A DNA stretch of 64,000 nt, taken from assembly GCF_004210375.1 (NCBI RefSeq), contig NC_134834.1, forward strand, positions 153,779,290-153,843,289, read 5' to 3'. Both the position numbers and the translations under genes were made by a program. Every line of letters starts with the position of its first letter. The first letter of the stretch is position 1. Below are positions 41,593 through 64,000 of the stretch, piece by piece. Under the pieces are notes generated by a model that saw only the letters and a list, made by a program, of their open reading frames with translations, was not told the DNA's origin and did not search any database. This DNA comes from Tachypleus tridentatus (lineage: Eukaryota; Arthropoda; Merostomata; Xiphosura; Limulidae).

Positions 41593-60689
<19,097 letters not shown>

Positions 60690-60711
<22 letters not shown>

Positions 60712-61110
60712 GTAAGTAAACAACTCAATCAGTAAAGTTTGATGTGTTATGTAAATTACTCATAATCAATAAAGTTTGATGGGATTAAGGTGAGTAAATA
60801 ACTCATGAATAAAATGAAAGTTGATGGTATTGAAGTACATAAATTAGTTGCAAGTTTGATGAAATGTGTACATTACTGATTCTAAATGACCTTTGATGGT
60901 ATAGGGGTATGCAAATTACTTGTAATCATAATAACGTTATGATATTGAAGTGTGTGAATCATATTTAACTAAAATTAAGTTTGGTGATACTAAAGTTTGT
61001 AAATCACTCATAACCAAAATTTGATTTGATGAAGGTACATATGTTATTTGTAATAAAAATGATTATTGATGGTACTCAGTTATGTAAATCACTTTCTACC
61101 AAGTTTGATA
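60690..61110 (+). repeat. minisatellite derived from the exon 6/intron 6 junction
   Basis: About ten degenerate copies of a roughly 40-base unit. The first is the exon end plus donor itself (TTTGATGGAATTGAGGTAAG, then TAAACAACTCAATCAGTAA). Later copies include GTTTGATGGGATTAAGGTGA at about 60773 and TTTGATGGTATAGGGGTATG at about 60893, each followed by an AATTACTCATAATCA-like block. Confidence 0.75.
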
Positions 61111-64000
61111 TTCATTGCACTGTCTCATAAAGCTAATAACTATACCTAAACTGTATTGCTCTCTTAGTTTATTAGACTGTAGAAAATTGTAACTTAATAT
61201 TTTTTATGATAAAACTTGTTTTTAACTTTAATTAATGTTCATGTTATAGAAGAAGAAAAAAAAACAGTTCAGCATAAGATAACCCACATATTCCAAGTTT
61301 GCTATTTAGTAACCTGTAAACTACAACAAAGCTGTATGAGTTCTTTTCATGTTTGTGATATTTTTTATGTATGTGTAGTGGTCATGATATATAAACATCC
61401 ATAGAAATTCTGGTAGTAAAAATACCTGAATTCAGAAAATTTTCAGTAACTTCAACATATTTTACCAACCAAGCTCGAAATCATGTTCATTTGGTTTTTT
61501 TATGTAGTACAAAAAAGTTTAGCTTTGCCAGAAGTGCCTTATGATCACTGTAGCTAACAAGAGTTATTTTCACTATCTCCAATAATGCTGTGATTTCTTT
61601 CAAAAATTGTATGTCTTAACATCATTCAGAGAAGAATTGTATGAAGCAAACATTTTCTTATTTAGTGAACTTTCATCTGGATTATTTAGGACCTAACATT
61701 TCATTTACAGGTATAATAGAAGCCAGATGCCTAGGATTTTCTAATAATTAAATTATGCCACAATTTTCTGGTGTTTCGCTACTTCCCTCATTCAACCCTA
61801 TCCACCTGGATATTTTTTTATCTGCATGACACAAAGTTTTAGTGTCTTACATTTAAAATTTTATTAAACTACTTTTTGTTTATGTTATACCAATTAGAAT
61901 AACATAAAATCTTAGCTAATAATCCATATTTTAATAGTATACAAATTTTAAGTTTTTAATTCTACAAGACAATAATAATAAAACTGTTTCATGGGGCATG
62001 CATTGAGCTGCTTTTACTAGTTGCAGTAGCTTGTTGGTAATGTAATTTAATACCATAACATAAGCTTTTTGGTCCAAAGGGCAAGAAAACAATAAAATTC
62101 ATTTATAAGTAGAGGTAAACTATTATGGACTTGGAGCTAATTAGAATAAACAGATGTGGTCTTATATTACAATGTGAAGTCATCGTAAAAAGAAAAAAAA
62201 GTAATTTAGAATTATTATTATTTGGTTTGGTGTTTACAAGGTTTGTCAGGAGGTTTTAGGAATTACAAAAAGGAAGCTTGAGATTTTTAAGATAAGGAAA
62301 AGTATTTTTATCTTTAACATAAAAATTAATTTGCATATGGACTATTCAAAACAAATACTCAATACATTCATGGACAAATGTTTTATTTTATTAAAATACT
62401 TTACCAAAATTATGATTTTTTTGTATGTTAAAGACTTGTAATATTAAGTTAAATGATGCCAACTTTTGTGAAGATATATACACTACATTTAAAGCTAGAA
62501 GTATTAAATCTAGAAAGAGGTCGTGTGGTTGGTTGTAAAAACTGATTCCATTTTGAGAGAATTAAAACCAAATCTTTTTCTCATAATAAAAATTTTAACT
62601 GTCTTTATCTTTAGTTTCATTTTTATTGTTTCTTAGAGCTATATGCTTGAATTTATATTAAAACATTATCCTGTGTGATTAAGTTTATAAAGAATCTGAA
62701 TGTTATATTATTTTATTATTTGCACAAACTTGTCAGGGTGTACCAATCCTGGAACAAACAAAACGTTTATGAAAACTTAAATATCATCAGGTACACTTGT
62801 AAAAAGTACAAGATTCCTGGCTGGAAACAGTTAAGAAGGGGCTACCATAATTCTGGTGTGATATTTAAAAATATTTAACAGTTGTATTAGAATGACTTGA
62901 TATTTTAATGAAGTACATACTACACTGAAATTGAGCTCCCATGTAAAGTAGGGAACAAATATATGTTTTAATAAAATTGGTAAGGAAGATTTATAAAATC
63001 TTGATTAACGTGGTAAGATTAACAGTATAATGAGCTTTAACAAATTTTTAGATGCTATTTTTGTTGCAAATATTAACTCTTTCCATGCAGGTATCCTTGT
63101 CTACACGTCATGAAGTTTTACAGAGATTCATAACTTAATTATATTACTTTATCATCATGATATTTGAGTAGACTTGGTCTCAAAACATATCTAATAATTC
63201 ATATTTTAATATCCTAGAAATTTAAGTTATTAATTTCATGAGAAAATACTTTGAAAGATCTTCAATTTCCCATTGTATGAAAACTGATATTTGATCTTTA
63301 TGTCTTCCTCTTTAATTTATTTGTGTAGAAGTATAGAATTTAATGTGAATTACCTATTACAATATAGTTATTACTCATGTAAAGCATACATTTATAGCCT
63401 TCAATCTTCTTTGGTTTCAGAGCCATAAACTAAAATATTTATAACCAGTAGAAAACCAGAGTTTTAGTCTGTGAAATAATTTTTACATTTTTTATGTATA
63501 AAGAATTGTTCGCTTTGCTTCGAGATTTTATTCCTATTGGAATCACATTAATAAGCTTAGCTGAATTTTTAAACGCTCTCATTACATTGTTGGAAAGCCA
63601 GAAAAACTGTGATAGTTGTAGGTCACATCTGCTTTTTATGTGTTTTTCTTCTGTATTTGTTGATGCATTATCTATTTCAATACACAATTATTTTATGAAG
63701 TAATACCATAAGTTTAAAAAAGATTCATCAAGAATCTACAGAAAAAGAAAAAAACATCCATGAAAGTAATGTTTTTTTTTTTATTGAAACGTGAAAATTG
63801 CAAACTTTTTAAGTTAAATTAGTTAAAGGAAAAGGAAAAAATATTATTTTTCAAGTAAAATACTTGTGAGTAGCCTGTGCCTTACATAATATGATAGGAT
63901 CACATGGGCTTTTACAACTTGTATGGCAGGATTACTATTTGGATACTGTTCAAAGGGCAATAAAACATAATTAAGTATAAAGAGTTGTATATTGTTATGA
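61111..64000 (+). other. start of PAP intron 6, no further exon recognised
   Basis: I searched by eye for the expected next exon (beginning Ile-Asp-Ile-Leu-Phe) and did not find it. The sequence is AT-rich with short chance ORFs on both strands. No transposon family was recognised. Confidence 0.5.

Follow-up and report, generated by a model that had tools for sequence, protein, structure and literature searches.

At least two human genes contain repeats that run across an exon-intron border and duplicate the splice donor; for one of them, the use of a copied donor is reported. The copies of the CBS VNTR serve as alternative donors, and the VNTR is reportedly associated with reduced activity, to judge by the title of a study by Lievers from 2001. 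The 31-bp VNTR of human CBS has the notation c.1444_1467+7(16_21) (PMC2630376) and is tabulated as 'exon 13-intron 13' (PMC1395315). The VNTR in intron 18 of human ABCA7 has a 25-bp unit whose first bases are the GT of the exon 18 donor (PMC5954066). In the tissues listed there, use of a cryptic donor retains one 25-bp unit at a level of about 2 ± 1%; the retained unit is out of frame and introduces a premature stop. This retention is constant across VNTR size; skipping of exon 19 grows with length (PMC5954066). New introns can also arise by tandem duplication of exon segments containing AGGT (PMC4974935); for fission yeasts, the same article cites several AGGT duplications of 24 bp.

The repeat described here lies in a window of 64,000 nucleotides of Tachypleus tridentatus, the whole stretch of DNA that was analysed. 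Judged by sequence homology, the locus is a canonical eukaryotic poly(A) polymerase (PAP) gene, the identity given by the first-pass annotation. All five exon pieces matched PF20750, the PAP nucleotidyltransferase domain, three of them above the curated cut-off. A 138-residue part of the joined reading matched bovine PAP alpha 1q78 with a phmmer E of 1.9e-60, and the joined exons match this protein as far as residue 165. Four upstream exons were located at 45448-45611 (start not fixed), 47191-47257, 58543-58624 and 59784-59893. The fifth coding exon recognised, 60658..60711 (+), which the first-pass annotation numbered exon 6, has 54 nt, a ttctcag/GCA acceptor, a GAG/gtaagt donor and phase 0 at both ends. 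On its own it matched Pfam PAP_NTPase with an E of 0.00049, under the curated cut-off for so short a piece. Joined, the five exons form 477 nt without a stop, with the start of the first exon not fixed. The reading frame is intact here and a pseudogene is not evident. The third catalytic Asp, Asp167 in bovine PAP, would fall in the following exon. One motif scan of 60712-64000 gave no match to this exon, which probably lies past the window end.

A degenerate tandem array extends from about 60681, within the fifth exon, to about 61100, with head-to-tail units of about 34-46 bp. The start inside the exon had been claimed before; it lies slightly earlier in the exon than was thought. One unit consists of about 31 nt of exon end and about 15 nt of intron start, so the unit does cross the exon-intron border, as proposed. 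Both parts are assigned to the unit because the exon bases 60681-60711 alone match the array, and unit 5 agrees, retaining the exon's AAATGACCTTTGATGG adjoining AAAATGACATTTGATGG. A narrow register starting at TTTGATGG was dropped: units 3 and 5 resemble exon bases further upstream, and the register was widened. The first-pass annotation had counted about ten copies of a roughly 40-base unit. A hand split combined with nhmmer gave nine intronic units at 60738-61101; a tenth, to about 61130, is doubtful and was not recovered by the HMM. Unit limits, and hence the split for the HMM, were set by hand. The features are as follows.

60681..60726 (+): unit 0, the presumed source copy, with 31 nt of exon end, the authentic donor and 15 nt of intron start; hand-set limits
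60727..60763 (+): unit 1, about 6 nt missing ahead of the donor position, without a good donor
60764..60803 (+): unit 2, the copy closest to unit 0; the best local match has 33 of 40 columns and runs partly past the unit
60804..61090 (+): units 3-9, degenerate copies in the wide register
61091..61130 (+): unit 10, a doubtful partial copy, absent from the HMM recovery
60709..60717 (+): authentic 5' splice site GAG/GTAAGT, GT at 60712
60733..60735 (+): in-frame TAA, met when a transcript extends past 60711; position read off the sequence
60787..60795 (+): decoy 5' splice site AAG/GTGAGT, GT at 60790, 78 nt past the authentic site

Tandem Repeats Finder (minimum score 40), a type of check that had been proposed, detected a period of 45 and reported only 60752-60844 with 2.1 copies. 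Since the units are strongly diverged, the program catches only the best part of the array and misses most of it.

The relation between array and exon border was assessed by alignment. The exon and donor unit, 60697-60737, aligned to 60738-61110 with a local score of 43 and 33 identities in 40 columns. The maximum was 31 in 2000 dinucleotide shuffles and 24 in 628 other segments of equal length. Exon likeness no greater than expected for AT-rich sequence had been named beforehand as the outcome that would count against a shared origin; the likeness exceeds this expectation. With the donor omitted, the exon part 60681-60711 scored 33 against the array, which was reached by 1 of 5000 shuffles. 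For an HMM of the nine intronic units, the best non-member match in the 64 kb, both strands, was the exon/donor unit at 60698-60727 (9.7 bits, E 0.11), followed by a runner-up with 5.0 bits and an E of 3.6. The strongest self-match was found at lag 45, with an autocorrelation of 0.444 (maximum of 300 shuffles, 0.415). Global alignment of unit 0 with unit 2 scored 42, and the maximum of 500 shuffles was 33.5. This likeness identifies the exon-intron border as the putative origin of the array. The other four PAP donors bear no likeness to their own introns; of the five donors tested, only 60712 was positive. Junction likeness as a general trait of the PAP gene was sought at five donors and four acceptors and was not found.

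Copying in blocks of three units was considered and rejected. The autocorrelation at lag 117 was 0.411, under the shuffle maximum of 0.415. Units 1-3 aligned with units 4-6 with a score of 66 (maximum of 500 shuffles, 47), and no block order is shown because the remaining block pairs scored 40-77. Gapped percent identities of units and blocks were discarded as evidence; shuffled units average 77% at equal settings.

The PAP array shares head-to-tail units that include a 5' splice site with both ABCA7 and CBS, and exon sequence within the unit with CBS. The ABCA7 array starts at the authentic donor, and the PAP array also includes the authentic donor. The ABCA7 unit begins at the donor, with no exon part in the description cited, whereas the PAP unit includes about 31 nt of exon (PMC5954066). 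The ABCA7 array is described as length-variable and able to expand greatly (PMC5954066). The PAP copies, represented here by one sequence, are diverged. The CBS unit spans the border in the same way as the PAP unit: the notation, as we read it, stands for 24 nt from the exon end and 7 nt from the intron. CBS units are given as invariably 31 bp, with substitutions, in 16 to 21 copies; the about nine PAP units have 34-46 bp and are strongly diverged. The PAP array and the described AGGT duplications are both tandem-copied exon sequence bearing GT splice signals. The AGGT duplications create new introns, whereas the PAP copies sit inside an existing intron and a new intron is not evident. By analogy, the PAP array has the anatomy of the ABCA7 and CBS minisatellites and would act likewise; what sets it apart is that the copies are diverged and the units irregular, and that another gene is affected.

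All 3819 GT sites on the + strand were scored for donor strength against a matrix of vertebrate type, on an AT-rich or a uniform background. With the AT-rich background, the decoy at 60790 ranked first and the authentic donor at 60712 second; with the uniform background, they ranked second and third. In pairing with the 5' end of U1, the two sites were joint first on the + strand, both with -10.2 kcal/mol, and the opposite strand has one better site with -10.9. The decoy scores above the authentic donors of the PAP exons at 47258, 58625 and 59894; the authentic donor at 45612 is under the listing score of 2. These models predict that the decoy is as strong as the authentic donor. Local RNA structure gives unpaired values of 0.003 for the real and 0.002 for the decoy donor; both are predicted to be about equally buried, so structure predicts no preference.

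A donor-like sequence had been noted near 60786, and AAGGTGAGTAA is located at 60787-60797. Decoy donors in the plural, as the first-pass annotation had it, were not recovered: 60790 is the one strong site, 60907 (GGG/GTATGC) is moderate with rank 70 of 3819, or 176 with the uniform background, and the other sites in the intronic copies are weaker (for example 60950, rank 181; 61035, 252; 60835, 1191; 60995, 1218). The proposed scoring of the donors thus put one copy on a par with the real donor and found that most other copies have lost donor quality.

An exon spliced at 60790 would be 78 nt longer, a length divisible by three. Translation of the extra stretch gives VSKQLNQ-stop, and the decoy would thus cause a premature stop and no in-frame insertion. 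The expected disruption of the protein just ahead of the third catalytic Asp is therefore also predicted here, by an in-frame stop that goes beyond mere extension of the exon.

Conservation of the copies was gauged by counting, in ten intronic rows, the cells that agree with the exon copy. Agreement was 84 of 99 cells (0.85) for the exon core 60697-60708, 83 of 133 (0.62) for the exon part 60681-60696 and 45 of 79 (0.57) for the intron tail. The donor 9-mer agreed in 52 of 88 cells (0.59), and, taken as a set, the donor columns show no higher conservation than the other parts of the unit, at 0.57-0.85. The pattern across the unit parts fits drift. Selection for decoys across the array is unsupported because the donor columns are not the best conserved and most copies have lost donor quality.

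The most likely reading is an old minisatellite, grown by slippage, with one live decoy that is a candidate site for probably rare use. We give a probability of about 0.7 to an old, decaying minisatellite that arose from a duplicated PAP exon end and 5' splice site and in which one decoy, 78 nt on, has kept its donor strength. Tandem duplication of about 45 bp across the exon end and the 5' splice site would have come first, and the array may then have expanded into the intron via slippage or unequal exchange. The exon sequence is presumably the older one because its FDGIE is common to bovine PAP. Selection on the protein would hold the exon copy, and the intronic copies would drift. The real donor at 60712 would end the 54-nt exon, leading on toward the catalytic Asp and to a working mRNA. 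In a minority of transcripts, the decoy at 60790 may pair with U1 snRNP as well. Such transcripts would meet a stop seven codons past FDGIE and may enter nonsense-mediated decay or yield a protein without the third catalytic Asp.

Alternatively, 60790 may be a retained and regulated alternative 5' splice site, a poison extension, with the rest of the array inert. A shift between 60712 and 60790 would then adjust, by way of nonsense-mediated decay, how much active PAP is made. In line with this, 60790 and the real donor both rank among the highest of the 3819 sites, and the extension has an in-frame stop. The real and the decoy donor differ by two changes that both keep the strength, and 6 of 324 two-step variants score as high. 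This is a weak hint of constraint on 60790, a site that is the best of nine and was chosen afterwards. However, with nine copies it is not rare for one donor to survive by chance: a simulated copy retains a donor score at the level of the decoy with a probability of 0.16 at 20% divergence and 0.06 at 30%. Regulation at this site is considered unlikely.

Quite improbable is a polyadenylation feedback switch formed by the duplicated junction, in which U1 would pick between two equally strong donors 78 nt apart and the PAP level would govern its own pre-mRNA. The second donor leads to a stop codon and sits between AATAAA motifs. Very improbable, too, is an array that works through intronic poly(A) signals or the binding of U1: U1 on the decoy would protect the adjacent AATAAA motifs, and when U1 is scarce or PAP activity high, transcripts would end in the array intron and a short PAP would result. 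AATAAA is present in the array at 60768, 60808 and 61052, against an expectation of 0.68 at the rate of the whole window (Poisson P 0.03). However, this excess is mild, was sought afterwards and lies in an AT-rich intron. The poly(A)-like motifs travel with the copied sequence, since an ATTAAA is already present in the exon, at 60685. A chance likeness of junction and array, due to AT-rich sequence and the donor consensus, is hardly credible: short pieces are indecisive, with 9 of 1000 shuffles reaching the score for 60697-60711, 49 of 1000 for 60718-60737 and 36 of 1000 for 60659-60696, but the longer stretch beats all shuffles and other segments, the exon part alone is almost never reached, and the units keep their register along some 400 bp.

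The old, drifting minisatellite would be a diverged case in a gene that encodes an essential enzyme of RNA processing and would show that such arrays can persist. It would also show the loss of donors copy by copy, leaving perhaps one live competitor. Two near-equal tandem donors offer a natural case for studying the choice of the spliceosome.

Other repeats and mobile element-like sequences are present in the PAP introns. A second repeat with a 45-bp period and 2.6 copies is located at 58991-59104 in the intron 58625-59783. The junction at 58625 has no likeness to the following 450 nt, which cover this repeat up to 59089. The acceptor at 58543 aligned to the preceding 450 nt with a score of 26, reached by 2 of 500 shuffles, which is suggestive and unconvincing over nine tests. 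The long intron between 47257 and 58543 contains broken retrotransposon-like frames at 48465-50433 (+), with weak matches to reverse transcriptase (PF00078, E 0.00048) and RNase H (PF00075, E 0.018), both under the cut-off. An open frame of 150 codons at 54973-55425 (+) has a Cys-rich stretch that resembles a gag-type zinc knuckle by eye; Pfam had no match to it at an E of 0.1. Another open frame of 145 codons at 57232-57669 (+) matched Pfam with just two weak, implausible hits under the cut-off. It shows by eye a Cys/His pattern like that of a BED finger and, by this resemblance, may be a relic of a hAT transposon.
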